A stretch of 44,179 nt of DNA from a virus, in the IMG/VR virus record IMGVR_UViG_3300031645_000921, positions 1-44,179 of that record. One strand, written 5' to 3'. The notes below the pieces were generated by a model. The model worked only from the letters and a program-made list of their open reading frames with translations, did no database searches and had not been told where the DNA came from. Position numbers and translations under genes: made by a program. Shown here piece after piece: positions 3,423-32,711 of the stretch (positions are counted from its first letter, which is position 1; every line of letters begins with the position of its first letter).

Positions 3423-3426
3423 ATAA

Positions 3427-7202: not shown

Positions 7203-7223
7203 ATTATCACCTCATTTTTCATA

Positions 7224-7235: not shown

Positions 7236-7265
7236 GAGTTATAAAATACAATTAAGCAAATAAAA

Positions 7266-7289
7266 AAGAATAACCCTAAGGTTATTCTT
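7266..7289 (-). terminator. Terminator of the 81-aa gene
   Basis: A 10-bp stem AAGAATAACC / GGTTATTCTT overlaps the stop codon of the 81-aa gene and is followed on the minus strand by a T run. Confidence 0.85.
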
Positions 7290-7533: not shown

Positions 7534-7566
7534 AATTACACCCCTTTCAGTATTTTTATATAAATA

Positions 7567-7578
7567 TAATTAATTGTT
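7567..7578 (-). promoter_or_regulatory. Putative late promoter, AACA-N6-TA motif
   Basis: AACAATTAATTA lies 34 bases before the ATG at 7533, in the gap after the gene ending at 7579. Confidence 0.6.
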
Positions 7579-8483: not shown

Positions 8484-8496
8484 ATTTTAATAGTAT

Positions 8497-9219: not shown

Positions 9220-9238
9220 ATTACAACATCACTTCCTT

Positions 9239-9250
9239 TAATTATTTGTT
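9239..9250 (-). promoter_or_regulatory. Putative late promoter of the GIY-YIG gene
   Basis: AACAAATAATTA lies 20 bases before the ATG at 9219 and just upstream of the GGAAGTGA ribosome site. Confidence 0.5.
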
Positions 9251-9286
9251 TCACGACCGGATCTAAATAAATAAAATTTAAAACAT

Positions 9287-9826: not shown

Positions 9827-10629
9827 TTTACCCTACGCTTTCCATATAAAAATTTGATGATCTCAATTATAACATCTTTTCTTAATTCAGATACCATAAT
9901 TCTATGGCCAACTTTAGTTAAGATTTCAATTCGTTTATCGGTTGATGTCACTTTATCAAATATATAGAATGCTGCATCAATAGGAACGATTTCATCATGT
10001 TCAGATATATAGATTCTAGTTGGTGCATCAATTGTAATTATATGCTTTTTAACATTGCTTACAAGTCTCATAAAATTAGTAAAGACTGAGATTTTTACCC
10101 CTTTTAATGTATCAGCGTAATCTTCAGCTAAATTAATTGTAGAGTTTTTATCAGCTATAAATTCATCCATAAGCTCTTGTGCTGCATTATCGTTTAATAC
10201 TTTTTCTATAATCTTTGGCAAGTCTTCTTCATTTTTTCCTTTGTGTGCTTTAAAGAAATCACCTACTTTTGATATAATTTTGTTTCCTCCGCCATACTTA
10301 AATGCTGGTGAAATAAGAACCATTTTGTCAGCTCCATAATGACTTGCAAGATGACCTGCAATAACTCCACCCATGGAAAATCCCATAATGTAGACCTTTT
10401 CATATTGTTGCTGAAATACTTGGTACTCAATTTCAACTTGTCTTAAGCACTTTTTATAATTAAATGTATTAATATCATCATCATAACCATGTCCTTGTAA
10501 TTGAGTCATCCAGAAATCTATTCTATTTTTCTTTAGTATTCGTGGTAAATCATCAAATCCCGTTGTTGCATTTCCTAAAAAACCATGGACAATAAAGAAT
10601 CCAATTTTTTTCTTTTTAATTTTAATCAC
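9805..10629 (-). CDS. Alpha/beta hydrolase, esterase or lipase-like
   Basis: About 272 aa. It shows the alpha/beta hydrolase order: an HGF oxyanion segment (FFIVHGFLG), an HGYDDD loop, nucleophile elbow GFSMGG (S85), acid in ISEHDEIVP (D212) and catalytic His in KVGHRI (H242). This resembles small bacterial carboxylesterases and monoacylglycerol lipases. The substrate cannot be read from sequence; membrane lipid or host surface acyl groups are possibilities. The start is unusual. The GTG at 10629 lies inside the GAGGTGA ribosome site, while an ATT codon at 10620 sits at the spacing used by the neighbouring genes (see findings). The gene has its own promoter motif and overlaps rusA. Confidence 0.85.
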   Translation of the reverse strand: MIKIKKKKIGFFIVHGFLGNATTGFDDLPRILKKNRIDFWMTQLQGHGYDDDINTFNYKKCLRQVEIEYQVFQQQYEKVYIMGFSMGGVIAGHLASHYGADKMVLISPAFKYGGGNKIISKVGDFFKAHKGKNEEDLPKIIEKVLNDNAAQELMDEFIADKNSTINLAEDYADTLKGVKISVFTNFMRLVSNVKKHIITIDAPTRIYISEHDEIVPIDAAFYIFDKVTSTDKRIEILTKVGHRIMVSELRKDVIIEIIKFLYGKRRVKWPKEKK

Positions 10630-10639
10630 CTCTCCTATA

Positions 10640-10651
10640 TAATTAGTTGTT
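10640..10651 (-). promoter_or_regulatory. Putative late promoter of the hydrolase-rusA unit
   Basis: AACAACTAATTA followed by TATAGGAGAGG; the motif is immediately upstream of the ribosome site, giving a very short leader. Confidence 0.55.
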
Positions 10652-10674
10652 GATTTTTCTATAAAGACTTAAAA

Positions 10675-10698
10675 AAGAATAAGGTTTCCCTTATTCTT
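10675..10698 (-). terminator. Terminator of the 717-aa and 947-aa virion unit
   Basis: Stem AAGAATAAGG / CCTTATTCTT overlaps the stop codon at 10697-10699 and is followed on the minus strand by six Ts. Confidence 0.85.
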
Positions 10699-12850
10699 AT
10701 ATTCGACTCATTCATGGTACAGACTTCATATTTAGAGTTTTAGCTACTTTAGAGCGTTCCGTAGTTATATAACTACTGTGTATAGCTTTTTTATCGTCAC
10801 TAAAATCATTTCATAAGCCATTATTAACTGTTGCATTTCCTTCACTAGAAATACGATTTATCATTTGTTTCCAGTATCTATTTAATGATTCACTTTCACC
10901 ATTATTATATAGAGCACCTAGTCCAGCCATATTATCTAAAAATACGGTAAATGATGGATTAGCTGATAAGAAATTAAGTCGTTTAACCATAGCTAAGTAT
11001 GGGTATAAATCTGTAATTGTAAATGAACCTGAAATGGCTCTTGGAAGTTTATCTTTAGTCCATAAGTTTCCGTCACCACCTCTGATTCATGTAACATCAG
11101 ATATAAGTGCTAAGTCTGATGTAAATAAACCAGGAATATCAGCTCTAACAAAGAATGGAGAAACATACCCATTTTGAGCTGCCTGTCTTGGAAGTGCAAA
11201 TGCTAATAATGAGAAGAATGGTACATAAACATATTGAAATATACTTAATGGATCCCCATATGGAGATACAAAGTTAAAGTTAAAGTTTAAGTTCTTGCTA
11301 TAATTACTATTTTGCCATAAGTTCGGATACATAACTTTCATACCATTAGTTACTGAAAAAGCTTGTACAATTGAACTTAGATCTTGATTGGTTGCAATAT
11401 TTTTAGCGGCATCCAATAGAGCTGTTCATTTGCCTCCTTCAGAATTAGGTGCTAAATTTTGCATTGTTCCTTTAAAAATATTAATTTCTTGATCTATAAC
11501 ACCAACAGTACGTCTAGCGGCGCCAATTGCGTCACTTCCCATACCTGTAATATAATTTAATCTTTGGAATTGATCGGATGCTGAGTTAGCTTCACTTTCA
11601 AGTCCAACTGATAGTTCTTGATTACTTACAGCTTCAGAAACAGCACTCATAGTTACATAGAAACCAAGTGACGATTTATATTTATTTTGAAGAGTTGTTT
11701 CATAATCTAAAGTTCCTGCAGATGCAGTAGGATCAAAGAATGAGAATAAATTAAATGTGTTTTCTTCATTAGTTGTTCCTAATCCAAGTTTTATCCACAT
11801 TGCATTAAGCATAGTTTCTAAATAAGAATAATATTGATTGTATTTTGCTTGGAATGTATAATATCTTCTATCTTTTTCAGCAAATTCAGGGTCTAAGCCA
11901 TTTTTAAGAAGATAGCTCATTGATTCTTCTAAACCATTTGTTTGATTTAAATATGTATTAGTTTTAACAGTTGAGGTACCATTACCAGATGTAATATTTT
12001 TAAAAGCACCAGAAATAGAACTTCTTATTGATTGTGTAAATGAACCACCATTAAACTTTGGAAGTCCAGGAGTTAAGCTCAAAAATACTGAGTCTTTAAT
12101 GAATGTATTTATGGTTACTCGATTATTTGGGTCTGTTATTTGGTTAAATAATGGAGGCCCACCTAAAAGTAAGTTCCCATATAAATTTGCACTGTTACTA
12201 CTAGATGGATCTAATGGAGTACTTTTAGAGAAATTTATTTTATAAGTTCCTACATTATTTACATAGTCACTAAGAAAACTATTATTTCCGCCACTTCAAG
12301 CTCGTTCCATTGCTAAGCCATATTTAGTTTCTGTAACTCCGTCACTATAAAATAATGCGGCTGTTACTGTTTCAGCTACAGCATTTAATGCTTGACCGAA
12401 AACATTGCTAGCACCACCAACTAAGGTCGACATTTTTTTTAAGTCTTCACCGAATGATGACATAATTGAATCATTGGTTGTAATATTTTTTGTATAAGTT
12501 TGATTTCAATCTCATGCTGCAGCATCAGTGTTACTTAAAATACCAATTGTTGAACTGCTATTTGCAGAATATGATCCAGCATTTATGATTGTGTCCATTG
12601 TATTTTTAATTAATGAAGTAGCTGAAGAGAGTGCTGCTGAGTATAAAGATGAACTAGCATCTGTTACAAATGAATCTACATCTCTAGATAATTGGTCTAA
12701 AGAGCTTAAGTTAGATGAATAAAAATTAATACTATCTATAACTTGCTGAGTCGTATCAATAATATCTGTTATTGTTTGAGCATCTAATCTAGCTAAGTCT
12801 TCAACATTTAGTATTAAACCATTTCTAGCATCTATTAAAAGTTGTTGCAT
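10697..12850 (-). CDS. Putative virion structural protein (717 aa, TGA as Trp)
   Basis: It reads from MQQLLIDARNG to VPWMSRI and TAA through about seven in-frame TGA codons, including AAAWDWN, ERAWSGG, GGKWTAL, DVTWIRG, GLWNDF and VPWMSR. TGG is also used. The first 120 residues are Ser/Ala/Asp-rich helix, with long Ser/Asn/Gly-rich segments after it. Near the C-terminus a hydrophobic stretch (FFSLLAFALPRQAAQ) precedes VRADIPGLFTSDLALISDV, which reminds me of tail or baseplate proteins of myophages, though I cannot name a family. It follows the 947-aa gene by 17 bases and precedes a terminator, so the two form one late unit. Confidence 0.75.
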
Positions 12851-12867
12851 TTAACGTCACTCCCTTC

Positions 12868-15711
12868 TTAGTGTCCTTGTAGTATTGAATCTAGCCCAGT
12901 GGGAAAACCACCTTGTAAAAATGGGCTAGACTTACTATTACTACCTAATTTTGCTATATTTTGTAAAGTTGCACCCGTATTTGCAATAACTGCATTTCTT
13001 TGAGTGTTTCCTGTATTTAATAGTGTTTCAAGTGATGAAATCTTCATGCTCATTTCGGCAATTACATCCATAAGTGAAAGAGTTTTTCCTTCATAATCTA
13101 CTTTATCATAGATTCCAGGATTTACAGCTATAACTTTCATTGGAGTTGATTTCTCTGCAGAACTCATTTTTAGTGCTTTAGAAATTCCGCCAGATGCAAG
13201 TTCGCCTTTAGACATACTAGGAACAGGTTTAACTGCAAACTTTTTGGCATCTCAATTAATACTTACTTGTTCTTCATTCGGTTTTCCATTAGTTGAATCA
13301 CCTGCTATAAATTGAGATACTGGTGTATTACTTGCTGCAGAGCTGGTTCCATTTGCGAATTTTGGTAATGCTTTTCCAAATCCGCCAGTAGCTAAACCAA
13401 GAACACTACTTACAGGACCACCAAGAACAGGACCAATTGCTACATTTATTGCAGCTTTAGCCGCAGTTTTCGCTAATTGTTCAAGTTTGCTTACTTTAAC
13501 ATCTTCTCTTGTGGTAACATCTTGCATTGCATTTACGATATATACTGGTAATGCTGGTTCTGTTTTAATACGAGTAATACCCATATCAATTGCAGATTCT
13601 GATAATACGCTACTGCCCTTTTCATTTTTTTGAGTCTTTTCTTGTTCTTTCATTATTTCGGCCATTAACATTGATGATTGGTCGAATACTCTTACTGCTA
13701 ATGCACCATTTCTAATTTTTATATTTCTAATTGGACTAGAAATATCAAATGTAAACATATTTGGCGCTGTTAAAATATTTTGGTTCTTTTTACTATATTC
13801 GCTTGCTGATTGTCTAAGGCGTCCGTCTTTTTTACCCAATTCAAAGTCTATACCTTTTCCTAATCCGTTAAGATCTTTTTTTCATGTTTTTTGTCTTAAT
13901 GTAATTGGAGAATCATCTGAGCTACTATTTACTTGATTAATAACAAATACTGGTAATGCATGTGTTGCAACTTCATTAAATATATCATTTGGAAGTGGGC
14001 TTGATAATTTAATTCCAATATTTGTAATTTGATTAGCAACATATACTGGCACCATTGGATCTTTAGTTGTAATTGATACTTTTAGATCATTATTTTCTAA
14101 ATTATTTGAAGGATAAACATAAGGAGTCTTGTCTCCAAATTTAGGAATTTTGTCTTTAAACATTGACGCTGTTTCTTTAGCCGCTTGATATGCAGCTTCA
14201 TTTTTATATGCTTTTCCTGCATTATGTGCGTTAGTTCGGTCTATATCCATGTCCATGACTCTAGTTTCAGCTTCTTGGGCTGTTGATAATAAAGCATTTC
14301 TGATATCTTTAGGTTTACGAGCTTTTCCAAATAAACCTGTTGTTTTTATTCCAGGAGTAGTTTCAGCTAATTTTAATATCTCTTGGTAATCTTTTCCTTT
14401 TAAGTTTTTTTGTTGTTCTAAAATATCAGAGGATATTATATTATTTCCTGATGCAAGATCAAATTCAGATAATGCATCTTGACGATTAATCATATTAAGT
14501 GCTTCTTTAGCTTTTTTTCTACTAGTACGTTTTGTTCCTAAAATTGATTCTTGAGTACGATATGCAGCTCGTCTAGAGCCTTTTACAAAATTAGCTGTGG
14601 CTCCTGGTAAACCAGCTTGTCAACCTTGAAATAATCCAGCAATTCCACCTAGACCGGCCATTGGTATAGATGCAACAGCTCCACCAATTGTTCTAGCAAT
14701 AGTTCCTGGAAGATCTTTAGTTCTACTTACAGCTCTACTTGCAGCTCCACCAAGTGGGACTTGCCTATTTTTAGAAGTAAAACCTTCTTTAGTACGAGCT
14801 TTAGCAATTTTAGCATTTTTCTTTAATTCTCGTAATTGTTCGTTATTTAAACCAGCTTCACCAGTTACAAATGCATAACTTGTATATTGCAATAAATCAT
14901 TATATGTTTTTGTACGAAGGAATGCACCAGCATACATAGTATCTGATTTACCCATAATTAATGAAACATATAATAACACTTTATTTATAATTTGGGTTGA
15001 TATTTCTTTAAATGAAGTTCCATCTTCAATATCAATTCTTAGATTATATGCTAAACCTGCAACTTCAGCTTGGTCATATATATCTCTTAATACTTTTTCT
15101 AATTCTCTTTTAAGTTGACCGTATTGATTAGTAACTTTTTTAGGAATCTTAAAACCTTTATCATAAGCTGCAAGATAATGTCTTATATCTTTGGGTGATG
15201 CTGATTTTTCTACTTTTTTATAAACATCTTCAAAACTTGAAGTATGAAATTGGCCAGAAGAAGTCTTTTTTCTTTTTTGCCGAATAGATTGAACATCTTT
15301 TTTAATTTGGCGTTCATCAACTTGAATATCTTTAAGAAGGATTTCTAAGTCTTGTTGTTTCATATTAATAATCAATGTTTCTGTACATTGTTTATTAAGA
15401 GATTCTTCAGTTGCATGTGTTTCTAGAAGAGCTGAATCACCATATTGAGTTATGATATTTTGTTTATCTTCATATGATCATGTTGAGACCATTTTGAATA
15501 CATATTTTCTCAATTCAATAATCTTGGAGTTAGACATACTTAAACTTTGGTAATTTGCTCTTGCAATACTTTCAGATACTGCACTTGATGTTGAACTTGA
15601 TAAGCTTCTTTTAGTCACACCAGAAGACAAACTACTGTCAGTATAATCATCTTGATTTCTTAATCTTTGATTTAAGCCTAAACCTGCTGTATTATTTACT
15701 GAAGATGCCAT
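12868..15711 (-). CDS. Putative virion structural protein (947 aa, TGA as Trp)
   Basis: One frame runs from MASSVNNTAG at 15711 (AGGGTGA ribosome site) to TAA at 12868-12870 through four TGA codons (near 15479, 14619, 13881, 13254) decoded as Trp. Without recoding it appears as five unrelated fragments. Residues 1-70 are Ser-rich. Residues about 115-360 are helical and Lys/Arg-rich, with Ala/Gly patches near 335-360. Two copies of a strand pattern (VPVYVANQITN and LPVFVINQVNS), and a third (LPVYIVNAMQD), lie further on, suggesting a threefold beta repeat. There is a Gly-rich hydrophobic segment (GPVLGGPVSSVLGLATGGFG) near the end. A tail or baseplate role is inferred. Confidence 0.75.
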
Positions 15712-15750
15712 AAATATCACCCTACTTTCCATATTTCGTTTTTTATCATA

Positions 15751-15762
15751 TAAAATATTGTT
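15751..15762 (-). promoter_or_regulatory. Putative late promoter of the 947-aa gene
   Basis: AACAATATTTTA followed by TATG lies 40 bases before the ATG at 15711; it is back to back with the rightward motif at 15771. Confidence 0.55.
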
Positions 15763-15770
15763 AAGCTCAA

Positions 15771-15782
15771 AACAATTAATTA
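15771..15782 (+). promoter_or_regulatory. Putative late promoter of the 507-aa gene
   Basis: AACAATTAATTA lies 35 bases before the ATG at 15817. With 15751-15762 it forms a divergent promoter pair separated by eight bases. Confidence 0.6.
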
Positions 15783-15816
15783 TCATTTAAAAAGAAAATA
15801 AAAGGAGCTGGATAAT

Positions 15817-17340
15817 ATGAAACTAAGCCAAAAAGATTTAGACTCAGTTATTATAAAAAAATTGGAGAGATTAGACCCACTTGTAGATAATTTTACACCC
15901 GGAGAGAAAGGTGCCTTTGTAAGTTATGACGGCCAAAATTTTAATTTACGAAAAGTAAATAATTTAACTCTTAACAAAATTACAAGCGTTAGTGAAATTG
16001 AAGCTCTAAACGCTCAGTTATATGATGAATCAATCTTAGTAAAAAGCAGTATATTTACTAATTTTAATATGAATAATAGAGCTAATACAAATTTCAGAAC
16101 ACAAATTGTAGAACTTACAGGAAATACTGCATTTAAGACGGATAATGAAATAAGACTTATAAAAAAAGGTAAGACTTATATTCTTATACTAGATCGTAAA
16201 GGCATTTTCTATAAATATAATTTAGAAAAAAAAGAGATAGACTTTAAATTAGATATCGCAGATAAAGTTAAACACTTATTTGCTGTAACTAATTTTCAAC
16301 CTTATGATATATTAGACTTTGATATCTTCCGTGGTGGATTCCTATTCTCTACAAAAAACAATGGTGTATTCTTTGCTGATATCGAAGGTAACAATTTAGA
16401 AGTTTTATTCCCTGAAAGAGATATTGTATTAGTAAAAGATATTAATGAAAAAGATATTATTCTAATTGATACACATGGTGTAGTTACAATATATGATTTT
16501 GATCAAGAGTTAAAATTAGAGACATTTAATATACTAAAAAAAGTAGATCAAACTATTAAAGCTATTACAATATGTGATGACGAAATAATTCTTTTAAGCT
16601 CACATAAATACAAAACTAGTACTGAAAATATTATTCATATATTGAAAAAAGACTTAGCTGGAATTGGATACAACAATATTACAGCTAATGTATATCCTGG
16701 TACTGATGTATTCGGATATATTCCATCATTTATAGATGCTGATGATAAATATATTTATGTTTCAGGATTAAAAGAAAACAAAGAGTTATTCGTATGGAAA
16801 TATAATCGTAAAGAATTATATAAAGAATATAAAGAAATCATCTTTAATAAATTGCCGATAACTGGTTTAAACTTTATAAAATTTGAAAACTCAAAAATAT
16901 ATATTAACTGTCAAGATAAATTATTAGTAATAGACGAAGATGGAAATATTAAAAGTAATATTAAATTAGGTTTTGATAAGATCCAAGATATTATTTTCGA
17001 AAATAATAAAGCTTTTATTTTTTCTGGTAGTGAACTATCTTGGTATATAATTCCTAATTACATTTTTGAAAACGAGTTCAATGCAATACTTTATGATGGT
17101 GAACCATGTAACAGTATAGACATATTTGTTAAAGGAAATACTGGTAATGAGTTAATCATGCTATTAGATTCTGAAACACTAGAACAAATACAGCCAACAT
17201 ACTATGCAACATATAAAGGAAATTCATATATAAAAATCTTAGGAAAAACAATTAAATCACTTACTGCAAAGATTACTGTATTTGAAGATACTGTAATTGA
17301 AGGAATTGTAGTAAAAGCTGATAGAATTTTTGTTAAATAG
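15817..17340 (+). CDS. Putative beta-propeller-like virion protein
   Basis: A 507-aa protein with a good AGGAGCTGG ribosome site. Most of it is a run of short beta strands with Asp/Gly turns every 40-50 residues (ILILDRKGIFYKYN, ILIDTHGVVTIYDFD, KIYINCQDKLLVIDEDG), the pattern of a WD40- or PQQ-like propeller. It has only two Trp codons, both TGG, and a small C-terminal beta domain. It is the first gene of a four-gene rightward unit that includes TGA-containing genes. A tail or baseplate receptor-facing role fits but is not proven. Confidence 0.7.
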   Translation: MKLSQKDLDSVIIKKLERLDPLVDNFTPGEKGAFVSYDGQNFNLRKVNNLTLNKITSVSEIEALNAQLYDESILVKSSIFTNFNMNNRANTNFRTQIVELTGNTAFKTDNEIRLIKKGKTYILILDRKGIFYKYNLEKKEIDFKLDIADKVKHLFAVTNFQPYDILDFDIFRGGFLFSTKNNGVFFADIEGNNLEVLFPERDIVLVKDINEKDIILIDTHGVVTIYDFDQELKLETFNILKKVDQTIKAITICDDEIILLSSHKYKTSTENIIHILKKDLAGIGYNNITANVYPGTDVFGYIPSFIDADDKYIYVSGLKENKELFVWKYNRKELYKEYKEIIFNKLPITGLNFIKFENSKIYINCQDKLLVIDEDGNIKSNIKLGFDKIQDIIFENNKAFIFSGSELSWYIIPNYIFENEFNAILYDGEPCNSIDIFVKGNTGNELIMLLDSETLEQIQPTYYATYKGNSYIKILGKTIKSLTAKITVFEDTVIEGIVVKADRIFVK

Positions 17341-17350
17341 GGGTGAGAAA

Positions 17351-18328
17351 ATGTTAGAAAATAGAATAAAAAAAGTAATACAAACAGTCTATAAATTTGA
17401 CTTTTCCAACTCTGAGCTTGTAGATGGTAGAGAGTTAGTAGTTCAAAATAATATAAGTGAATTTGTTATGGCCTTTGGTCGTAGAGATTTAGATAATGGT
17501 ATTATTGTAACTCCATCAGGTTATAAAAAAGGGTTCGTATACAAGTCAGCAAATGACGGCGAAATTTATAATCATCCCAACTGAATTCCTGATGTTATTA
17601 ATTTTTCTTTTAATATCTACGGATTAAAAAGAAATGCGTTTTATAAATTAACTGTTATTAGTAGAGATACAGGTTCTAATAGAGTTATTACAAATGATAG
17701 ACGATTAGTAATTACAAATGATGAAAATGAATTATTACTAGATGAAGATCTTACAGGTCAATACAAAAATAAAGAATTCAATTCATTATTCAGAAGCTTT
17801 AAAAATGAAGCAAATCTATTCTTTTCAGTAGGAAAAATATTTATTAGCGATATTATTATTGAAGAAGTTGAACTATTAGTTGAAGATGAACTAATAACTG
17901 ATGAACCTGATTCTCAATTTGAAGATGGTAAACTAAAACTTGCAGCATATGGTGTGTTCACAACACAACCTAATACTGATACTGAATATAAAGGCCGCTA
18001 TCTTCCTATGCTAAGATACAGCGGAAAAGGTATAAACCTTTACTTTGATACTAATACAGATCAATATGTTATTGAACGAGATAATGTTGAAGATATTTTA
18101 GGTGAAAGTTTTACAAATATAAATTATATTGTAGATTTTAACTTTAATAAAGTTATAAACAAAGGATTATTCTCACAATATAATATTGTAGATGTAAATA
18201 ATACGCCTTCACCAAATACACTAAAACAAGGTTACATAGTATTTGAATTCTCAGATCAAGATGACAATCCAGTTGTTTATAAAAACAAAGATGGTCGTAT
18301 GGTCATTCTAATTTACAAATTATTTTAA
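17351..18328 (+). CDS. Putative virion protein (325 aa, TGA as Trp)
   Basis: It starts MLENRIKKV 10 bases after the upstream stop, with GGGGTGAG before the ATG. The frame passes through TGA at 17582-17584 (HPNW-IPDVIN) and ends at TAA. It is beta-rich and acidic, with a Glu-rich strand (DIIIEEVELLVEDEL) in the middle and a terminal GRMVILIYKLF strand. No family recognised. The position between the propeller-like gene and two small TGA-containing genes suggests a structural component. Confidence 0.7.
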
Positions 18329-18346
18329 AAAAAGGAGGAATAAAAG

Positions 18347-18568
18347 ATGTCTACTAAAAAAAGTTTAAACTTAACAGGAACTTCTGATACAACTTACGAT
18401 CTTGATGCTATTGCAGCTGAAACTAGATTAAATGCAGCGAAGCCTCTTATAGTACAGATTCATAGATACAATGCAAATAGCGAATTAAATGAACTTAATA
18501 AAAACCCCAATCCTTCTAACTTACTTTTAGGCCAAATGTGACTTTCTAAGAAAGATGAAACATTATAA
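18347..18568 (+). CDS. Small putative virion protein (73 aa, TGA as Trp)
   Basis: It starts MSTKKSLNL after AAAGGAGG and reads through TGA at 18539-18541 (GQMW-LSKK) to TAA, whose last A is the first base of the next ATG. It carries a TTYDLDAIAAETRLNAAKP segment that is echoed in the next gene (KTYDLDEIVASISRDNADY), and ends with a LLLGQMWLS motif resembling one tail-type W repeat. Confidence 0.7.
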
Positions 18569-19362
18569 TGCCTAGAGAATTAATTACTACAATTATTGAG
18601 CCTACAGTTGACAATACTATTGATAATGATTCAGTAGTAAGCCCTGAAAGCTTTGATCCAACGCCTACAGATGGCATAGACAATTTAATTAGTACATTAG
18701 AAGAAGGAATAAATACTGACGATACAACACCTGAAACAGGCTTTGCTATTTCATTTACTCCAGATAAAACATATGACTTAGATGAAATTGTTGCAAGTAT
18801 ATCCCGTGACAATGCAGATTATGAACTTGTAGTAAGAGTAAATCCTGAAAATATTATATCTATATTAGCATATGCTGAGATTGAACAAGAAATTCTTATA
18901 GAATACAGTGCGGCTAGTGTAGACGAAGTTTTAGACTATCAAACTATATTTAATTCAAAATTAATAAACTTTGATTCTTATGCTGAAATAGTAAGTGCAA
19001 TGGAATATGTATATTATCCATATTCGGTTAATTTAGAAGCATGATTAGTTGCGGACGGAGCAACATTTGAAGTAATTGGTGACTATATCAAGCAAACATT
19101 AACACCTGCTGATTTAGAAGGTCAACTTTTATTAGATGAAAAGCAAGAAAAAATAAAAATTGATAGAGCTAACTTAAAGAAATATTTATTTGATGAAGTA
19201 AAATCAACAGATAAAGTAAAACCAATATTAAATTATACAAAAGCAATGACGCAATGAACTGAATTAGGTCTTGATGGAACAACTGAATCTGATTTTGATA
19301 CTATTGAGTTATATGAAGCTCGTATTGCAGCTTTAGAAGAACGTATAATTGAACTAAGCTAA
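18568..19362 (+). CDS. Putative virion protein (264 aa, TGA as Trp)
   Basis: It is coupled by a TAATG junction to the 73-aa gene. It passes two TGA codons (EAW-LVAD at 19042-19044 and TQW-TEL near 19256) and stops at TAA. The N-terminal 60 residues are acidic and disordered-looking (many D, T, P). The TYDLDEI module near residue 70 is paralogous to the 73-aa protein. The C-terminus is a coiled coil (EARIAALEERIIEL). An assembly or tail-associated role is inferred from context only. Confidence 0.72.
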
Positions 19363-25051: not shown

Positions 25052-25621
25052 TTATTTTAAATATTCATCCATTACTGTTCCTAAACGTTCTAGTTGAGCT
25101 GTAGCAAGTACAGTGTACGTAATGAAGCGTTCTGGGTGTTTTGTAAATTTAATAATTTCCTTTACATCTTTTTTAGGAAATTTAGTCCAATCGAAAATCT
25201 TATGGTTTAGTAGTTTCCCAGTGATTGTTAGTTCTTCAAGCCATTTGTAATATTGAGCTCTAGAAACATCATATTTCGTTAGTACTTCATAAACTTTAGC
25301 TGGTGTATTCTTAACTTCAAGAATAACTTTAGCCGCGGTTTTAAAGTATACGCGTCTACATGATTGTGGTAATTTTGTTTTTTGCCAGTTTTTAGCATAC
25401 GCTCTCGTTTCATCAGTTAATAAACCTACATAACTTCCTGTTTTAAAACGTTTACTAAATCTGTCATTCTTAATATCTAATTGTGAATAATTTTTCCAAG
25501 CTCTTTTAGCTTTCCCTATTTTTACTCCTAATCTTTCAGCTTCTGCTGCAATCATCTTTGGAGTAATTTTTTTAACTTTACTTGTTGCAAGAACATAAAC
25601 TAATTCTTCTAATTTATTCAT
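25052..25621 (-). CDS. Hypothetical basic protein with HTH-like segment, coupled to gap
   Basis: A 189-aa Lys-rich protein. The segment TPAKVYEVLTKYDVSRAQYYKWLEEL looks like a helix-turn-helix, and MIAAEAERLGVKIGKAKRAWK near residue 23 is a second possible one. Its ATG lies inside the last codons of the GAPDH gene (8-base overlap), so the two are translated together. This pairing is odd and may mean the protein modulates the host or phage program in which GAPDH acts. No family recognised. Confidence 0.65.
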   Translation of the reverse strand: MNKLEELVYVLATSKVKKITPKMIAAEAERLGVKIGKAKRAWKNYSQLDIKNDRFSKRFKTGSYVGLLTDETRAYAKNWQKTKLPQSCRRVYFKTAAKVILEVKNTPAKVYEVLTKYDVSRAQYYKWLEELTITGKLLNHKIFDWTKFPKKDVKEIIKFTKHPERFITYTVLATAQLERLGTVMDEYLK

Positions 25622-26648
25622 TAGTTCCTCCTATTTTATTTTTATTTATTAAGTATTCAGCGGTTCTAATCATTTGTGCAGTATAACTCATTTCGTTATC
25701 ATACCATGCAATGATTTTATATAATTTCTTTCCATCGACTTCGATTTCTCTAGTCATCAATGAATCGAACATTGTACCATGAGTATCACCAATAATATCG
25801 CTAGATACGATTGGATCTACAGTGTATCCTAATGTGTCAGATTTAGATGCTTTCATTGCAGCATTAATCATTGCCACACTTGGATTTGTTTCTAATTCTA
25901 CAACTAAATCAATCATTGATCCAGTTGGATTTGGAACTCTAACAGCAATTCCATCTAATTTGCCTTGTAATTGTGGTAAAACTAAGCCTACAGCACTAGC
26001 AGCACCTGTACTTGTTGGAATAATATTTGCTCCTGCAGCTCTACCTCGTCTCGCATTGATTCCCTTCTTATGAGGTTTATCTAATACAACTTGGTCATTA
26101 GTGTAAGAGTGAATTGTAGTTATAAAACCTTTAACGATGCCAAAGGCTTTATCTAAAACATTAGCAATTGGAGCTAAACAATTAGTCGTGCAACTTGCAC
26201 AGCTAATAACAGTTTCAGTTCCATCAAGTATTTCGTGATTGACACCAAATACAATTGTTTTCATATCACCTTTTGCGGGTGCATTGATAATTACTTTCTT
26301 TGCTCCTGCTCTAATATGTTTTTCAGATAATTCTCTACTTGCAAAGAATCCAGTACATTCAAATACTACATCAATGTCAAGTTCTTTCCAAGGTAATGTT
26401 TCAGGATCTCTTTGAGCGTAAATCTTAATTCTTCTACCTTCAACAATTAAGTAATCGTCTTCAGTTGAAATTTGATCTACTTTATAACGACCTTGAGTGG
26501 TATCATATTTTAATAAATGTGCTAATTCTTTTGGATTGGATAAATCATTGATTGCTACAACCTCAAATTTATCATTGTCGTGCATAAGTCTATATGCTAA
26601 TCTCCCAATACGACCAAAACCATTAATTGCTATTCTTACTTTATTCAT
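25614..26648 (-). CDS. gap: Glyceraldehyde-3-phosphate dehydrogenase (NAD-dependent, glycolytic type)
   Basis: A 344-aa full-length, apparently intact enzyme. The Rossmann motif is NGFGRIGR (9-16), with Asp35 after the second strand, which favours NAD over NADP. The active site is ASCTTNC (151-157, catalytic C153), His180 lies in TIHSYTNDQ, and phosphate-site segments PTSTGAA and RVPNPTGS and the closing WYDNEMSY are present. It converts glyceraldehyde-3-phosphate, phosphate and NAD+ to 1,3-bisphosphoglycerate and NADH. It is preceded by AGGAGG but not by the AACA-N6-TA motif of its neighbours. It is followed without a gap by the 189-aa gene. GAPDH is rare in phages; transfer from a bacterial host is likely, but codon use (TGG Trp, AT-rich) now resembles the neighbours. 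Confidence 0.95.
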   Translation of the reverse strand: MNKVRIAINGFGRIGRLAYRLMHDNDKFEVVAINDLSNPKELAHLLKYDTTQGRYKVDQISTEDDYLIVEGRRIKIYAQRDPETLPWKELDIDVVFECTGFFASRELSEKHIRAGAKKVIINAPAKGDMKTIVFGVNHEILDGTETVISCASCTTNCLAPIANVLDKAFGIVKGFITTIHSYTNDQVVLDKPHKKGINARRGRAAGANIIPTSTGAASAVGLVLPQLQGKLDGIAVRVPNPTGSMIDLVVELETNPSVAMINAAMKASKSDTLGYTVDPIVSSDIIGDTHGTMFDSLMTREIEVDGKKLYKIIAWYDNEMSYTAQMIRTAEYLINKNKIGGTNE

Positions 26649-26736: not shown

Positions 26737-27087
26737 CTAATCTACTGAATCTTTATATAAATATATTTTTCTATCGTACTCAAATATAAAATTATTATCT
26801 CCATCTAAAAATAACCATTCTGCATCATTATACAATAATGTATTTGCTAATGCTAAGTCTCCAGTATAGTCATTACCTGCGTTTTCATCTTCGCCCTCTA
26901 TTATTAATGTATATATTGGATATGTTTTTAGAAGTGTTCCATTTTCTGTTAATGTAGTAACTATATCATCAAACGTATAATCTTCATCAAATACTTGTAC
27001 TAATATATCATATGACACATCTTTTGGTGTTTCACAAACATCAAATTTCATAGTAATATCTTTAAATTGTACATCTATTTTTTTCAT
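26737..27087 (-). CDS. Small acidic hypothetical protein
   Basis: A 116-aa, strongly acidic protein (DEDYTFDDIVTTL, EGEDENAGNDY), probably alpha/beta, with one TGG Trp. Its ATG lies within a 22-codon upstream reading frame (27062-27130) that has its own ribosome site, so it may be controlled by coupling. No recognised family. No terminator is visible between it and GAPDH, so read-through into gap is possible. Confidence 0.65.
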   Translation of the reverse strand: MKKIDVQFKDITMKFDVCETPKDVSYDILVQVFDEDYTFDDIVTTLTENGTLLKTYPIYTLIIEGEDENAGNDYTGDLALANTLLYNDAEWLFLDGDNNFIFEYDRKIYLYKDSVD

Positions 27088-27130
27088 AGTTCCCCCTTTT
27101 ATTTATCTTTTTAAGTAATAATTTAGCCAT
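27062..27130 (-). CDS. Putative 22-aa leader peptide
   Basis: ATG at 27130 after a GAGGTAATATT ribosome site encodes MAKLLLKKINKRGNYEKNRC plus two residues and ends in TAA inside the next gene. It is the first start after the promoter-like element at 27148. It may couple or regulate translation of the 116-aa gene. Confidence 0.4.
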   Translation of the reverse strand: MAKLLLKKINKRGNYEKNRCTI

Positions 27131-27147
27131 AATATTACCTCACTTTC

Positions 27148-27162
27148 CATATTTATAATATA
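27148..27162 (-). promoter_or_regulatory. Second promoter-like motif, TATATTATAAATATG
   Basis: Identical over 15 bases to 27755-27769 before the hibernation factor gene. It lies 18 bases before the leader start. A shortened version occurs at 41901-41910. Confidence 0.45.
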
Positions 27163-27176
27163 TGCTTAAAAAAAAA

Positions 27177-27197
27177 GATAAACCAAAAAGGTTTATC
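27177..27197 (-). terminator. Terminator of the hibernation factor gene
   Basis: Stem GATAAACC / GGTTTATC with an AAAAA loop overlaps the stop; a long T run follows on the minus strand. Confidence 0.8.
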
Positions 27198-27723
27198 CTT
27201 GTTCTGTTTCTATAGTTTTTAATAATCCATAATTTCCATCATGGCGTTTATACACAACAGACATTAGATCATTTTCTCTATCTTTGAATATAAAGAATGA
27301 GTGCCCTAGAAGTTCCATTTCTTCAATAGCTTCTTCTCGTGTAATAGTTTCAGTAGGCACTACTTTTTCTCTAACAATATAACCCACTTCTTCTTCAGAA
27401 GAATAATCTTCTTCAATTGGTAATAGATTGACTGCTGAGAAATGTGTTTTATTTTTATGCTTTAAGCCTTTGTATCTTTCAAGTTGTCGTTGTAGTTGAT
27501 CAACAATTTCGTCAACAGCACTATAATAATCTTTATTTATTACAGATGCTCTGATTTTACTTGATAACATAACTTCTAATTTCTTTTGATATCCTTCTTT
27601 TTTTAATGTTACTTGTCCATCTAACTCATTAAAATAATGTGAAAGACTACTTACTTTGTCCATGAAATACTCTTTCATTGGTTTTGTGAATTTAAGAGCT
27701 TTAGTACTTGCAAAAAATTTCAT
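27193..27723 (-). CDS. hpf: Long-form ribosome hibernation promoting factor (HPF)
   Basis: A 176-aa protein with both domains of long HPF. The N-terminal S30AE/YfiA domain (about 1-95) has a basic helix VDQLQRQLERYKGLKHKNK that binds the decoding region of 16S rRNA. A linker leads to the C-terminal dimerisation domain (about 120-172) with IVREK, EAIEEMELLGHSFFIFKD and VVYKRHDGNYGLL, nearly the bacterial signature. Long HPF joins two 70S ribosomes into inactive 100S dimers. It is preceded by AGGAGG and the TATATTATAAATATG motif and ends in its own terminator, so it is a single-gene unit. A phage copy could idle host ribosomes or protect them during infection; that is inference. Confidence 0.92.
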   Translation of the reverse strand: MKFFASTKALKFTKPMKEYFMDKVSSLSHYFNELDGQVTLKKEGYQKKLEVMLSSKIRASVINKDYYSAVDEIVDQLQRQLERYKGLKHKNKTHFSAVNLLPIEEDYSSEEEVGYIVREKVVPTETITREEAIEEMELLGHSFFIFKDRENDLMSVVYKRHDGNYGLLKTIETEQG

Positions 27724-27832: not shown

Positions 27833-28102
27833 TTAGTTATCTAACCATTCATCGTAAGCTTTTTTTCGTTTAAGTCCTATAAATACATCTATATTTCCAT
27901 TGTCATCTTCTTTTACAAAAGATGGATATGCACTAATACCATAGCTCATAGCTAAAATATCAGCGTCGTCGTCACCAGCTCCAACATAATACTCAGTAAC
28001 TTTCATTTCTGGTCGTGATGTTGTTAGATATTGTATTACACCAGCAGACATTTTACATGGTCCGCAATCTAGTTTTTTAAATACGTTTAATGTTGTAATC
28101 AT
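27833..28102 (-). CDS. Thioredoxin/glutaredoxin-like protein, CGPC active site
   Basis: An 89-aa protein starting MITTLNVFKKLDCGPCKMSA. The redox pair is C13-C16 in the classic thioredoxin order CGPC; a cis-Pro is in ISAYPSFVKEDD. The length fits a minimal thioredoxin fold of the phage NrdH/NrdC type. It lies just downstream of the ribonucleotide reductase gene (with an endonuclease gene between), so it is the probable electron donor that reduces the reductase. The start follows GGAAAGG. Confidence 0.82.
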   Translation of the reverse strand: MITTLNVFKKLDCGPCKMSAGVIQYLTTSRPEMKVTEYYVGAGDDDADILAMSYGISAYPSFVKEDDNGNIDVFIGLKRKKAYDEWLDN

Positions 28103-28116: not shown

Positions 28117-29004
28117 CTACAGTCTACTTATATGTTTTCATTTTTTATTGTTTATAATAGCTCTAGCATGTTCTCGAGAAATATTGAATTTATCTGCAAT
28201 TTTTTGTTGAGTTAGTTTTTCAATATTCCGAAGCCTAAGTATTTCTATAATATCATCTTTTTTTAATTTTGAGTTTTGATGATTTTCGCCTTTACGAGTA
28301 TGTATTAATCCATTTTTATAAGCATGTTTAACATTTTCTTTTTTAGTTATTATTTCTAAATTAGATAAATTATTATTTAATTTATTTCCATCTTTATGAT
28401 TTACTATATAATTTTTTGGAATTTCTTTTATAAACGTAGTTGCTAATAAAACATGAACATATAATGTTTTTTGTTTATTATTTTTTGAAAGATGTACTCT
28501 ATAGTAGCCACTATCTAATATTCTTTTTTTAATATAATTATTTTTTCTAATTCTTCCTAAATTCGAAATTTCATATTTTGGATATTCTTGTATTTTTTTT
28601 CATATTTCATTAGCAAATGAGTATGTTTGATTTTCTAAAACAGAATTAGTATTATATTTTATTAGCTTATTTTTATGAGCATGCATAGCGTTTTCTTTGT
28701 ATGAGCATCATTCTAAATTTTCTATAGAATTATTTAATTTATTTCCATCTTTATGATTTATTATTGGATAGTTATTCAAATTTGAAATAAAAGCTATGGC
28801 TACTAGTCTATGAAGAGCACAATTTTTGCACTTTCCGTTTTTTTGAAGCGTGATTCGATAATAGCCATTACTATTTCTAGGATATCGTTTAATACCTTTT
28901 ATAAAATGTTTGTTGCTGGTTATTCTATCCTTTGATCGTATATTCCCTAAATTAGAAACTTCATAAAATTCTTCAAAATTTTCTATAGTTTTTCATATTT
29001 CCAT
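28117..29004 (-). CDS. Free-standing homing endonuclease with two NUMOD4-HNH modules (TGA as Trp)
   Basis: A 295-aa protein visible in full only with TGA as Trp; all four Trp codons are TGA (MEIW, NLEWCS, NEIWKK, KKWKH). It has two tandem copies of NUMOD4 plus HNH: first FYEVSNLGNIRS with HRLVAIAFI and INHKDGNKLNN, then KYEISNLGRIRK with HVLLATTFI and VNHKDGNKLNN. A C-terminal HTH follows (TQQKIADKFNISREHARAI). HNH enzymes of this kind cut a cognate site and copy themselves by repair. It sits between nrdJ and the thioredoxin-like gene. Its ribosome site is enclosed in a hairpin (29013-29052) whose loop is a late promoter motif. Confidence 0.9.
28125..28136 (-). promoter_or_regulatory. Possible AACA-N6-TA motif before the thioredoxin-like gene
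   Basis: AACATATAAGTA lies inside the last codons of the HNH gene, 23 bases before the ATG at 28102. It could be a chance match in coding sequence. Confidence 0.3.
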
Positions 29005-29012
29005 TTTTTATC

Positions 29013-29052
29013 CTCCTATTAGTATATATAATTAATTGTTTACTAATAGGAG
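29013..29052 (-). promoter_or_regulatory. RBS-sequestering hairpin with promoter in its loop
   Basis: CTCCTATTAGTA pairs perfectly over 12 bp with TACTAATAGGAG. The right arm contains five of six bases of the AGGAGG ribosome site of the HNH gene, and the 16-base loop is AACAATTAATTATATA, the late-promoter motif. There is no T run, so it is not a standard terminator. Confidence 0.75.
29029..29040 (-). promoter_or_regulatory. Putative late promoter of the HNH endonuclease gene
   Basis: AACAATTAATTA located wholly in the loop of the hairpin; a transcript starting here lacks the left arm. Confidence 0.6.
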
Positions 29053-29060
29053 CCTGTTTT

Positions 29061-30007
29061 TTAAAGACGATCGCCTAAACATGCACCTGTAGCACAATCG
29101 GGATCTACTTCAACTTCTTCTTTATAATATTCATCTAATTCTAAATATTTTGTAAGAAGTTCATGTGATAAGTCATCTAAATCTTTAGATGCTTCTAAAT
29201 ATTCTTCCTTTGTAATAGTTTGATATGGTGCTTGAACATACTGATGATCCGTAAGTGATAAGAATGATACTGCCGTAAAATTATTCCAGTTATTATATAA
29301 CCATTTAGTTGCAGTTTCCCATTCACCACTTTGTACTGTTACAGTGATTGATGTATTTTGATCTGTATAGTATGTTTGAAAGCGTTTATATCTTTCTAAT
29401 TGTTCAGTTACAGAAACATCGAATTTAGTTCTTTTAGCAGCTGATTTAATAGGGAAGTAAATTACAGCCGTTGTGGCTGGTCTCGTAATGTCATCCTCTA
29501 TGCGCCAATTAAGTTGGCTAACTACTTTAAACATTGGGTTCGCTTTGTCCATACGGATGGTTCTCCAATGATATGGGCTATGACTCATATGTACTCCGGC
29601 GCTACTTGCATTAGCAACTAGTCCAAGAGTTCCAGATGGTTTAACTGCAGTTATGTTTAATGAGTGGTTTAACCCTAATTCATCAGCATAATCGTCAGCA
29701 GCTTTTCTAATTATAGCATATAGCCATTTCATAAATTCTATTTCTTCTGTTTCACCCATATTAGTTGCTTCAATCATATCCATCCATGATGATGGACTTA
29801 CACCTAATAATCGGTCTTCTTCTTGTGTTATATTCCATTCAGCTAATTCTAATTTGTTCATTGTTACTCTATAAGCTGAACGAGTTAAAACTTGAAGATC
29901 TTTTTCTAATAAATCATAATTAATAGTCTTATCATAATTTAAATATGAAACGACATTAAATGTCACAAGATTACATGTTTGTTTTGATCTGAGTAGAATT
30001 TCTCCAC
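29061..30007 (-). CDS. nrdJ: Class II ribonucleotide reductase, exon 2
   Basis: This is the 3' exon. It opens with the last two bases of the catalytic Cys codon (T|GT), then reads GEILLRSKQTCNLVTFN, continuing NPC from exon 1. It includes VKPSGTLGLVANASSAGVHMSHS, typical of adenosylcobalamin-dependent reductases, and ends with the redox pair CATGACLGDRL (C786, C791 of the spliced 796-aa protein), which passes electrons from thioredoxin. The joint is in frame only after removal of 30008-31071. TAA at 29061-29063 ends the gene just before the HNH hairpin. Trp codons are TGG. Confidence 0.88.
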
Positions 30008-31071
30008 CTTACAACACTAACTTTTGTTAGCCATTTTTATATAAATGTTGTTGTCTAGACTATATCATCCTGAATCATTCTATCTATAAATTCAGGGTGC
30101 GCACTAATTTCTTCGTATAAATTTTGATATTCTTCTGAGACATATCGTCTCCAGTCAAGTGATTCATTTCTAAAACCTAAATCTAATTTATAAAGCATTG
30201 ACGGGTAATTATTGATAAATTCATCTTTTATTAACATAAAAAATGGCTGGATCACATGATTTGCTAATCTTATTCTGTAACCAGTTGGGTTATTATTAGA
30301 TTTGTCTTTATAATCGCGATTAATTATTTTAGTGTCATCGGTATTTAATAATTTGTCAAAATATTTTTTAATTAGTACAACGTCTTCTTTTAAAAAGCCG
30401 TCGGTACATATTTCAACTCTACGATTATTAAGTCTATCTATTTTATGGGCCTTATATTTTTCTAGTCCAATAAAATTAGTAGTTCCGTCATCTGCAAACC
30501 ATATAGCTAAGCCTCTAGTATCTAAAGCCTCTAATATTTTTGTATCAACACGTTTTATACCATTTTTATAAAAACGCTCTCGTATTTTTCTAAAATAGTC
30601 ATGTTGAATAGTTAATCTATATAATGTTTGTCTGTTTCTTCCGTCTTTTTGCTTATAATTTTGTGCTTTATAATTTATTATACATTTATTTAATTGGGTT
30701 TCAATAATCTTTTTTTTATAAAGAATTACGTCTTCCTTTACTTGTCCACATCCAAATCTTCTATGTGATACTTTATGTATATATGAGTCTCCTAACATAG
30801 TTCCATAAATAAATGCTTTAAATTCACTTGATTTTAATTGATTCATAATTTATACCTTTCCGTTAACTGAGTTAACTTTCGTCTTTTTCTTAAAGAAACC
30901 TTAGTCGTTGAACTTTCTTCCCATAGGGAAGCTTAGCTGCTGATTATCCAATCTTTTAGATTTTCAAACATTCACGCTCACCTTTGCAGGTCACGTTGTA
31001 GTTCTAAAAGCTCTAAGGAGATTCCAGCAATTCACGCACTTTTAAATCCGCATGTTAAATTGAATAGGTTA
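30008..31071 (-). ncRNA. Group I self-splicing intron in nrdJ
   Basis: A 1064-base insert. P1: exon end AATCCGT pairs with intron GCGGATT, giving the required U-G pair at the 5' splice site. Core: AATTGCTGGAATCTCCTTAGAGC (P3/J3-4/P4 type) near 31015-31040; P7 strand GTTCAACGACTA near 30910; the P7 partner ATAGTC near 30055-30061; P9 arm ACAACA/TGTTGT with a CTAAC/GTTAG hairpin before the 3' end. The intron ends in G (30008). A LAGLIDADG ORF fills the loop between the two P7 strands, and its stop codon overlaps the second P7 strand. Splicing restores NPCGEI. Confidence 0.9.
30055..30846 (-). CDS. LAGLIDADG homing endonuclease encoded in the nrdJ intron
   Basis: A 263-aa protein with two LAGLIDADG-type motifs, FIYGTMLGDSYIHK (12-25) and GLAIWFADDGTT (112-123). 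The acidic residues at the end of each (D20; D119/D120) are the metal ligands. The body is Lys/Arg-rich, as in DNA-binding intron endonucleases. It lies wholly within the group I intron, and its TAG overlaps the P7 strand. Its Trp codons are TGG, unlike the two free-standing endonucleases. It would cut intronless nrdJ alleles at the intron site, spreading the intron. The start follows GGAAAGG. Confidence 0.88.
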   Translation of the reverse strand: MNQLKSSEFKAFIYGTMLGDSYIHKVSHRRFGCGQVKEDVILYKKKIIETQLNKCIINYKAQNYKQKDGRNRQTLYRLTIQHDYFRKIRERFYKNGIKRVDTKILEALDTRGLAIWFADDGTTNFIGLEKYKAHKIDRLNNRRVEICTDGFLKEDVVLIKKYFDKLLNTDDTKIINRDYKDKSNNNPTGYRIRLANHVIQPFFMLIKDEFINNYPSMLYKLDLGFRNESLDWRRYVSEEYQNLYEEISAHPEFIDRMIQDDIV

Positions 31072-32515
31072 ACGGATTCATTCCTCTAGCTAATGGATGT
31101 CTTTTCTTAAGTTCACTTTCATTCATAAATCCAGGTTCACCAAAGTTTTTAATATTTTCCATTAGTGCTTGTACTTCTTCAAAAGTTGGTTCATAACCAT
31201 CTTCAATAACCATTGTATTATTTGAGATCCAGTAATGTGATATTTTTCGATCACTGAAATCAACAAAATTAGTTTTAGCTGTTGCCATTTCGGTATCATC
31301 ATGAGAGAATAACGAAATCATTGCACTTCTACGAACTCCACCGACAACAATAGCTTCGGCAATTGAGTTTGCTATGTGCATAATATGTATAGGACGAATT
31401 TTTCCATCCACCATTTTCTTAGTTAATACATTACCATGACTATCTCTATAATCACTAGTAATTACCTCATGAATTTTTTGAATTGCTTGAATAAATGGTT
31501 CTGCTCCTGAAGCATAGCCCCCAAAAGTTTTGAGCGGTTCTCCACTTGGTCGAATGTTATTAAATACCATTCTGATATTTTTATAATCATGCTCGTATTC
31601 ATAACTCATATATTTTAAGAATTCAGTTATAGCTTTTCCCCAACCTTCTCTGCTGTCACCAACAATAATTGAGATTGTTCCATTAAGTTTTAACACTTGA
31701 GTTTTATCTTTTCTCATTGTTTTTGGTAAAGGATTGTAAGGAACTGTTTGTAATCGTATGTCATCTCTAAATTTTGGAAGTTTATCTGCAACATCCCATG
31801 TATTTCTGTATCCAACACCAGCTCCTACTGATAACAAATATAAGATATCATAAAAAGCATCAAGCGTATCTGGTTCAATAAATGAACAATTAAATAAACT
31901 TAAAGGGAACTTTTCTGCTGCTGAACTTCCACCTGTAAACATTGCACGTCCACTAAGAAATGAACGTAAATTAAATTGCATATCGAACATTTGTTCTGCT
32001 TCTTTTTTCAAGAATTGCATAACATCTTCGTCTCTAGATCTTATATCCATATTGATATTGTGATCTACAGCTCTAATTGTTGTTTCTTTAAATGTTTCTC
32101 GGCGTCCTAATTCAATAACGTCTCGACTATATGTTCTCAAGTAAGTAAACTTACTAATTGGACTCATATGTTCTGGGTAATTGTCATAGTTGATTAAAAA
32201 ACTAGGTGCTAAGTATTCTGAACTGTAGACAACATCTTTCAATGATTCTCTACGCTTTGATCTAGCATTTCGTCGTAGTATGTAGTGTTCAACTGCCTCT
32301 GGATATTCCTTAATAGCATATTGAACTTTGTTTTGTATTTCTTCAATGCCAATTCCTTCATAAACATGAACTGATTTTGCCATAGCTTTTATGTCGTCAA
32401 ATAATTCTCGTGCTTTTTCACGGCCATAAGTTTCTTTAAAAGCCTTGTATATAGCATCCTCAATTTTTCTCATGTTAAATTCTTGTAATTCACCAGTTCT
32501 TTTTCGTATGAACAT
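31072..32515 (-). CDS. nrdJ: Class II (B12-dependent) ribonucleotide reductase, exon 1
   Basis: This is the 5' exon, 481 codons plus one base. Residues 1-90 form an ATP-cone allosteric domain (FIRKRTGELQEFN at the start). The catalytic barrel has the first active-site Cys in LFNCSF (C210), GAGVGYRN, the RTPR-like IRPSGEPLKTFGGYASGAEP, and GVRRSAM. The exon ends GMNP plus T, the first base of the thiyl-radical Cys482 codon. Spliced, the motif is N480-P-C482-G-E484. The enzyme makes deoxyribonucleotides for phage DNA. No second subunit is visible in the window. The gene has a 185-base leader with an AACA-N6-TA motif and a palindrome. Confidence 0.9.
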
Positions 32516-32699: not shown

Positions 32700-32711
32700 T
32701 AATTTATTGTT
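32700..32711 (-). promoter_or_regulatory. Putative promoter of nrdJ, AACA-N6-TA motif
   Basis: AACAATAAATTA, 185 bases before the nrdJ ATG. The rest of the 284-base gap (32516-32799) is AT-rich and holds the palindrome and the terminator of the next gene but no ORF I can support. Confidence 0.35.

Follow-up and report, generated by a model that had tools for sequence, protein, structure and literature searches.

A promoter-spanning hairpin before a homing endonuclease gene of an AR9-type phage, a probable gate on its translation

When a mobile endonuclease gene resides within the transcription unit of another gene, what keeps it from being translated whenever that unit is transcribed? This question is raised by a locus in a complete IMG/VR record of 44179 bases (hereafter, the window), which is probably a fragment of a virus genome. 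In this locus, an HNH endonuclease gene follows nrdJ, the gene for a ribonucleotide reductase, and the sequence between them contains an inverted repeat with a promoter motif in its spacer.

The endonuclease gene, its neighbors and its phage

The features of the locus are as follows.

27833..28102, minus strand: thioredoxin-like gene, 3' of the HNH gene (Thioredoxin match at 1e-4, slightly short of the Pfam cut-off)
28117..29004, minus strand: homing endonuclease gene with two NUMOD4 + HNH_3 units (Pfam NUMOD4 2.8e-24, HNH_3 1.9e-23)
29012..29017, minus strand: Shine-Dalgarno sequence AGGAGG, 7 bases 5' of the ATG, assigned by sequence
29013..29024, minus strand: right (3') arm of the hairpin, TACTAATAGGAG, which contains most of the Shine-Dalgarno sequence
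29029..29040, minus strand: AR9-type late promoter AACA-ATTAAT-TA; the predicted transcription start is the last A, 29029
29041..29052, minus strand: left (5') arm of the hairpin, CTCCTATTAGTA, the perfect complement of the right arm, starting 8 bases past the nrdJ stop codon
29061..29966, minus strand: 3' part of nrdJ, separated from the 5' part by an intron-like insertion and without a Pfam match alone; stop codon at 29061
30055..30846, minus strand: LAGLIDADG endonuclease gene between the nrdJ parts (LAGLIDADG_2 4.1e-20)
31055..32515, minus strand: 5' part of nrdJ, B12-dependent ribonucleotide reductase (ATP-cone, RNR_Alpha and RNR-II insertion domain)
32700..32711, minus strand: late-type motif AACAATAAATTA upstream of nrdJ, with 1 mismatch to AACAATTAATTA; a possible source of read-through RNA

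The gene at issue is indeed a homing endonuclease gene, as the original prediction had it: NUMOD4 and HNH_3 each occur in it twice, far beyond the Pfam cut-off. Its product is 44% identical to AR9 g271 over 117 aa; no relatives of the protein were found in IMG/VR. The gene is freestanding, located 3' of nrdJ, between nrdJ and the thioredoxin-like gene; the latter is plausibly the partner of nrdJ, from which it is separated by the HNH cassette. The reading frame is open only if TGA is taken as an amino acid codon and comprises 295 aa with TGA read as Trp; the four TGA codons previously claimed for this gene are real (codons 4, 99, 135 and 289), and TGG is absent. Within the 22-kb block 19528-41835, this is the sole gene with in-frame TGA, and the presence of such codons amid a TGA-free block fits either late expression or a separate origin of the gene; the codons may also constitute a second late-only lock, as had been suggested. 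More generally, in-frame TGA is found in many genes at 301-19362 and in the gene at 41946, that is, recoding in the window is partitioned by gene block.

The nrdJ gene itself is split by the insertion 29967-31054, which holds the LAGLIDADG gene and matches no Rfam intron family above the threshold; the split arrangement is also seen in locus L002. The fold of the region upstream of the LAGLIDADG gene contains no promoter-hairpin. A terminator scan between nrdJ and the HNH gene revealed no credible terminator. The search of IMG/VR for nrdJ returned only near-identical fragments, all of which end before the hairpin, and yielded neither an empty site nor covariation.

Several other genes in this part of the window deserve mention in their own right. 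A full-length glyceraldehyde-3-phosphate dehydrogenase gene, with both Pfam domains (E-values of 1.9e-53 and 1.5e-37), is located amid the phage genes at 25614-26648 on the minus strand. The minus-strand gene at 27193-27723 encodes a ribosome hibernation factor with the N-terminal and C-terminal S30AE domains; it has a good AR9-type early promoter directly upstream and its product might target host ribosomes in early infection. The leader of the gene 26737-27087 (positions 27088-27163, minus strand) contains an early promoter and, between this and the annotated start, a ribosome site with a short frame (ATGGCTAAATTATTACTT...) that may encode an upstream peptide.

As for the phage, it had been described as jumbo-like. 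The record itself is a 44-kb fragment, and the description is supported by homology to AR9, with both homologous genes and shared gene order placing the window among relatives of the AR9/PBS1 jumbo phages. Specifically, the gene pair 40351/38869 matches AR9 g028/g029 in order, with an early-type promoter upstream of the pair in both phages, and the gene 41946 is 49% identical to AR9 g233.

The hairpin and the promoter in its loop

Read along the minus strand from 29052 down to 29013, the element consists of CTCCTATTAGTA - AACAATTAATTATATA - TACTAATAGGAG, and is followed by GATAAAAAATG. The inverted repeat 29013-29024 / 29041-29052 is perfect over 12 bp and encloses a spacer of 16 bases (29025-29040), so that the hairpin originally reported is exact in coordinates and letters. 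The end of its right arm is the AGGAG of the ribosome site AGGAGGATAAAAAATG; the predicted pairing thus covers AGGAG, in line with the claim that the hairpin hides the AGGAGG. In the RNA that reads through from upstream, the 12-bp stem makes up both the minimum-energy fold and the centroid. The energy of this fold is -14.8 kcal/mol, as compared to -5.6 +/- 2.2 kcal/mol in 200 shuffles, only one of which was as good; in a larger shuffle test, 9 of 3000 were equally good. Perfect stems of at least 12 bp with at least 4 G/C are expected only 0.125 times per shuffled contig. The other long stems in the contig are mostly intergenic and terminator-like, with short loops; unlike most of these, the stem at 29013-29052 encloses a loop of 16 bases and lacks a T-run on the sense strand. 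An Rfam search gave no match, and a scan of IMG/VR for the pattern of arms plus promoter found no match with long AATAGGAG arms. The same scan produced 44 matches with CTCCT...AGGAG, in which the stems are just 5-8 bp long; these were taken as chance.

The loop begins with AACA-N6-TA, in which a late promoter had been recognized. In AR9, late promoters have the form AACA-N6-TA/G, with the last base being the transcription start (PMC5312081); the late consensus on the template strand is given in PMC9209446. In the whole contig, the short pattern is no commoner than expected by chance (67 copies seen, 62.5 expected), so that the informative evidence is its position and its fuller form, AACAATTAATTA. 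With respect to position, 14 of the 67 copies lie 15-60 bases upstream of gene starts, where 1.4 would be expected. The fuller form, which conforms to AACA-N6-TA, the AR9 late consensus whose last A serves as the start, is present in 5 copies, with 0.115 expected, and all 5 are directly upstream of a gene on the same strand. Given this excess of AACAATTAATTA (about 0.1 copies expected) and the clear AR9 homologues in the contig, the assignment of the motif to the AR9-type late promoters, with their characteristic consensus and position just upstream of genes, appears good. Certain other genes in the contig are preceded by ATATATTAT-N6-G, the early motif of the AR9 type. The promoter in the loop is presumed to be recognized by an AR9-type non-virion RNA polymerase of the phage; no polymerase gene was identified in the 44-kb fragment. 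Because the last base is the start in this class of promoters, and owing to the AR9 homology, transcription is predicted to start at 29029, which is 3' of the entire left arm and 5' of the entire right arm.

Such a geometry suggests the following scenario. RNA reading through from the nrdJ unit would carry both arms, and the 12-bp hairpin formed in this RNA would bury the Shine-Dalgarno sequence, so that no endonuclease would be made. The non-virion polymerase would start at the loop promoter, at the predicted position 29029, and would yield a 25-base leader without the left arm; in this RNA, the ribosome site would be open, allowing translation. In fold predictions, the first five Shine-Dalgarno bases of the read-through RNA are unpaired with a probability of 0.00-0.02, and the sixth with a probability of 0.90; in the RNA from 29029, the corresponding probabilities are 0.30-0.40 for the first four bases and 0.89-0.98 for the last two. 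The energy required to open the start region is 13.1 kcal/mol in the read-through RNA versus 1.3 kcal/mol in the promoter-initiated RNA, a larger drop than in any other promoter-gene pair of the contig that was tested. Counting against this result, the start-region opening energy was reached in 1 of 30 shuffles when just the 60 bases upstream of the promoter were shuffled. By virtue of the hairpin lock, the HNH gene would be able to sit in the nrdJ-thioredoxin unit and yet stay silent when this unit is expressed.

Recurrence in AR9-group phages and alternative readings

Hairpins with the same general geometry recur in AR9 and BpSp. In AR9, for which maps of the promoter classes exist, four endonuclease genes (g079, g188, g265 and g190) have a promoter in a hairpin loop; the loop is at about 64330 on the plus strand for g079 and at about 149101 on the minus strand for g188. 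At g079, the sequence reads CAACACTAA - AACAAAAATATAAA - TTAGTGTTG, then GAGG: a 9-bp stem has a late promoter in its loop, and its right arm abuts GGAGG. At g188, a 17-bp stem surrounds the late promoter AACAAAATAA-TA; this stem, however, stops short of the Shine-Dalgarno sequence and does not cover it, which counts against the proposed role. At g265, an 18-bp stem is formed around the annotated early promoter, and the right arm includes the start codon; at g190, an arm lies over the start codon, and the early start has been mapped (PMC5312081). In AR9 g146 and g147, as well as in BpSp gp149 and gp188, the left arm is the late promoter itself, and the ribosome site directly adjoins the right arm. 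The predicted starts at the endonuclease hairpins of AR9 and BpSp either lie between the two arms or coincide with the inner end of an arm.

To put this in numbers, with every AR9 gene entered once, the pairing energy across the predicted start has a median of -11.8 kcal/mol in 6 endonuclease genes versus -3.95 kcal/mol in 95 other promoter-bearing genes (Mann-Whitney p = 7e-4, with the window's gene left out). The two endonuclease genes of BpSp agree with this (p = 0.02). The length of the uninterrupted stem alone is only weakly enriched at the endonuclease genes of AR9 and BpSp (Fisher p 0.05-0.11).

Similar elements are also encountered elsewhere. In AR9 (KU878088), the early promoter elements of g047 (at 39505) and g108 (at 85631), loci L049 and L050, are complementary to the ribosome sites and start codons of their own genes, with stems of 16-17 bp, e.g. 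CATATATTATCTTCCT / AGGAGGATAATATATG; owing to this complementarity, RNA started upstream would be subject to the same lock at these ordinary genes. In BpSp (KT895374), gp148 (start 109358, locus L059) has an AACA-type late promoter in a hairpin loop directly before its ribosome site, the hairpin being 16 bp uninterrupted and about 20 bp in the fold; this gene directly precedes the homing endonuclease gene gp149. The window itself encodes a second homing endonuclease (8497-9219, minus strand; NUMOD3, phrog_314; one TGA codon), which has no promoter-spanning hairpin despite the late motif AACAAATAATTA 20 bases before its start. Since g047, g108 and gp148 share the plan and this second endonuclease gene does not, the plan appears to be favored by endonuclease genes but is neither exclusive to them nor universal among them.

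Phage Goe21 lacks g188 and g265 and thus presents empty sites. Comparison with it shows that each of the two genes was inserted downstream of the stop codon of a virion-polymerase gene and ahead of the terminator of that gene, and that the inserted cassette brought the left arm with it. The terminator of the invaded gene is now beyond the endonuclease gene, and hence read-through, which the hairpin would keep silent, is built into these insertions. The window's HNH gene stands in the same relation to nrdJ as g188 and g265 do to the genes they invaded. PBS1 keeps both arms of the g188 stem unchanged compared to AR9, so that there are no compensatory changes at this locus.

It could be argued that the inverted repeat works in DNA rather than in RNA, either as a promoter-flanking operator, at which, for example, the endonuclease or some other phage protein would bring about autorepression, or as a cruciform that exposes the single-stranded promoter to a polymerase reading the template strand. 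The arms are symmetric about the promoter, the AR9 non-virion polymerase indeed recognizes its promoter on the template strand and is capable of initiation from single-stranded DNA (PMC9209446), and T4 I-TevI binds an operator at its own promoter and represses it (PMC2988022). However, the other four AACAATTAATTA copies in the contig have no comparable perfect long stem, and hence the inverted repeat is not needed for the promoter; besides, the right arm coincides with the ribosome site. The AR9 genes point in the same direction: the arms of different endonuclease genes are unrelated in sequence, the right arm of g265 covers the start codon at a distance of 39 bases from the promoter, and an operator would be a poor fit in those cases where the promoter is itself the left arm. 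We regard a DNA-level function as unlikely.

It seems quite unlikely that the hairpin is an element of RNA processing or stability, such that cleavage within the stem or the loop shortens the read-through RNA, which is then translated, with the nrdJ unit supplying the endonuclease mRNA. An RNase specific for double strands might attack the 12-bp stem, and cleavage of the loop would likewise free the RNA of its left arm, but the exact AR9-type promoter in the loop, a motif that clearly represents a promoter class in the contig, would be left without an explanation.

Chance has to be considered as well, inasmuch as AT-rich DNA yields many stems, the endonuclease genes are only weakly enriched by stem length alone, and the second homing endonuclease gene of the window is devoid of a hairpin; the element could then be a coincidence or a relic, i.e. 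a cassette with a promoter and a chance inverted repeat that has no regulatory effect. Yet, with 0.125 such stems expected contig-wide, this one overlaps both the promoter and the ribosome site, and the same geometry is seen again in AR9 and BpSp, which makes a fortuitous origin look very unlikely.

Finally, the possibility that the hairpin is the terminator of nrdJ, directly after which it lies, or that of an antisense RNA on the other strand, where the stem is followed by CCTGTTTTTT, with a promoter in the loop in either case, is hardly credible and was rejected: the nrdJ strand has GGATAAAAAATG after the stem and no T-run, the stem is absent from the terminator scan, there is no plus-strand gene nearby, and the genes invaded by AR9 g188 and g265 have their terminators beyond the endonuclease gene.

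Taken together, the position of an AR9-type promoter between two arms, one of which overlaps the ribosome site, makes it probable, as far as can be judged from sequence, that the element locks the translation of a mobile endonuclease gene unless the RNA starts at this gene's own promoter.

Timing of expression and known systems

The original prediction envisaged a timing switch. The part of it that stands is the I-TevI-like logic, whereby promoter-initiated RNA lacks the left arm; the part that is less secure is strict early/late timing, considering that nrdJ has a good late-type motif upstream and only imperfect early-type ones, so that the read-through RNA may itself be late. An early/late switch as first proposed is possible. 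However, two of the AR9 endonuclease genes use early promoters (that of g190 is located inside the late gene g189; PMC5312081), and hence the common principle would be "translate only RNA from own promoter", not "late only", and is better stated as the silencing of read-through RNA.

Control of this kind is already known. Hairpin-regulated homing endonuclease genes of phage T4 include those for I-TevI (of the td intron), I-TevII, I-TevIII and segB (PMC2988022). Like I-TevI, the endonuclease gene of the window is embedded in the transcription unit of another gene, has a ribosome-site hairpin in the upstream-initiated RNA, and has a promoter of its own, the RNA from which lacks the left arm; in the window, both properties of the RNA are predicted, and in this form the parallel with I-TevI drawn originally is upheld. 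There are also differences: the effect of the hairpin was demonstrated for I-TevI and is predicted for the window; I-TevI is a GIY-YIG enzyme encoded in the td intron, whereas the window's NUMOD4/HNH gene is freestanding 3' of nrdJ; and the promoter is of the AR9-type AACA-N6-TA form (AACAATTAATTA) as opposed to the T4 late promoter TATAAATA. The latter motif was not found at the corresponding place in the window, but it is a trait of the T4-like members of this class, not of the mechanism. Given the different promoter, the polymerase presumably differs from that of the T4-type cases, too.

In its situation, the closest known system is mobE of Aeromonas phage Aeh1, where an HNH homing endonuclease gene likewise lies in a ribonucleotide reductase locus and has its ribosome site covered by an RNA hairpin, which is reported to lower translation initiation (described in PMC2988022 and PMC3014915). 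Aeh1, however, is a T4-like phage, whereas the window belongs to an AR9-type phage in which the locus is that of the B12-dependent nrdJ, TGA is read as an amino acid and the hairpin effect is predicted. In T4, long RNA folds over the ribosome site, which are avoided in late-promoter RNA that lacks the 5' strand, are also found in gene e (lysozyme), soc and others (PMC2988022, PMC3014915); in contrast to the gene of the window, these are not mobile genes and have T4 promoters. The seg43(25) gene of Aeromonas phage 25 resembles AR9 g188 in having a very stable hairpin directly upstream of the endonuclease ribosome site (PMC2988022) but, unlike in the window, this hairpin does not sequester the ribosome site itself.

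The endonuclease genes of AR9/PBS1 and BpSp resemble that of the window in design: the promoter lies in the loop or makes up the left arm, the right arm covers or adjoins the ribosome site or start codon, and several of these genes are cassettes in or behind polymerase genes. They differ in belonging to other nuclease families (VSR/Hef-like, HNH-AP2), in the absence of recoding, in the early promoters of g265 and g190, and in stem sequences that are unrelated to that of the window. A full-text search of the open-access literature found no description of a hairpin-gated endonuclease in AR9-type phages; the kind of control is known from T4 I-TevI and Aeh1 mobE, but its use in AR9-type phages appears to be undescribed in this literature. 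Whether this amounts to a general control layer, with mobile endonucleases of several unrelated nuclease families in the AR9-group jumbo phages sharing a hairpin design that admits only RNA from their own promoter, early or late, with ordinary genes (g047, g108, gp148) sharing it as well, and with the whole being the convergent equivalent of the T4 system, is a matter on which we see the balance as close, tilting slightly against.

If the proposed translation lock is real, the solution that T4 found for a dangerous mobile endonuclease in the operon of another gene has evolved again, with an unrelated polymerase and promoter. AR9 would then set apart two ideas that go hand in hand in T4, namely, delaying the endonuclease and keeping the RNA of the invaded gene from being translated into endonuclease, because in AR9 the plan occurs with early and late promoters alike. 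The AR9 cases are testable in Bacillus subtilis, with transcript maps already in existence. For uncultivated jumbo phages, the arrangement would provide a sequence rule for spotting hidden control of the expression of homing endonucleases.
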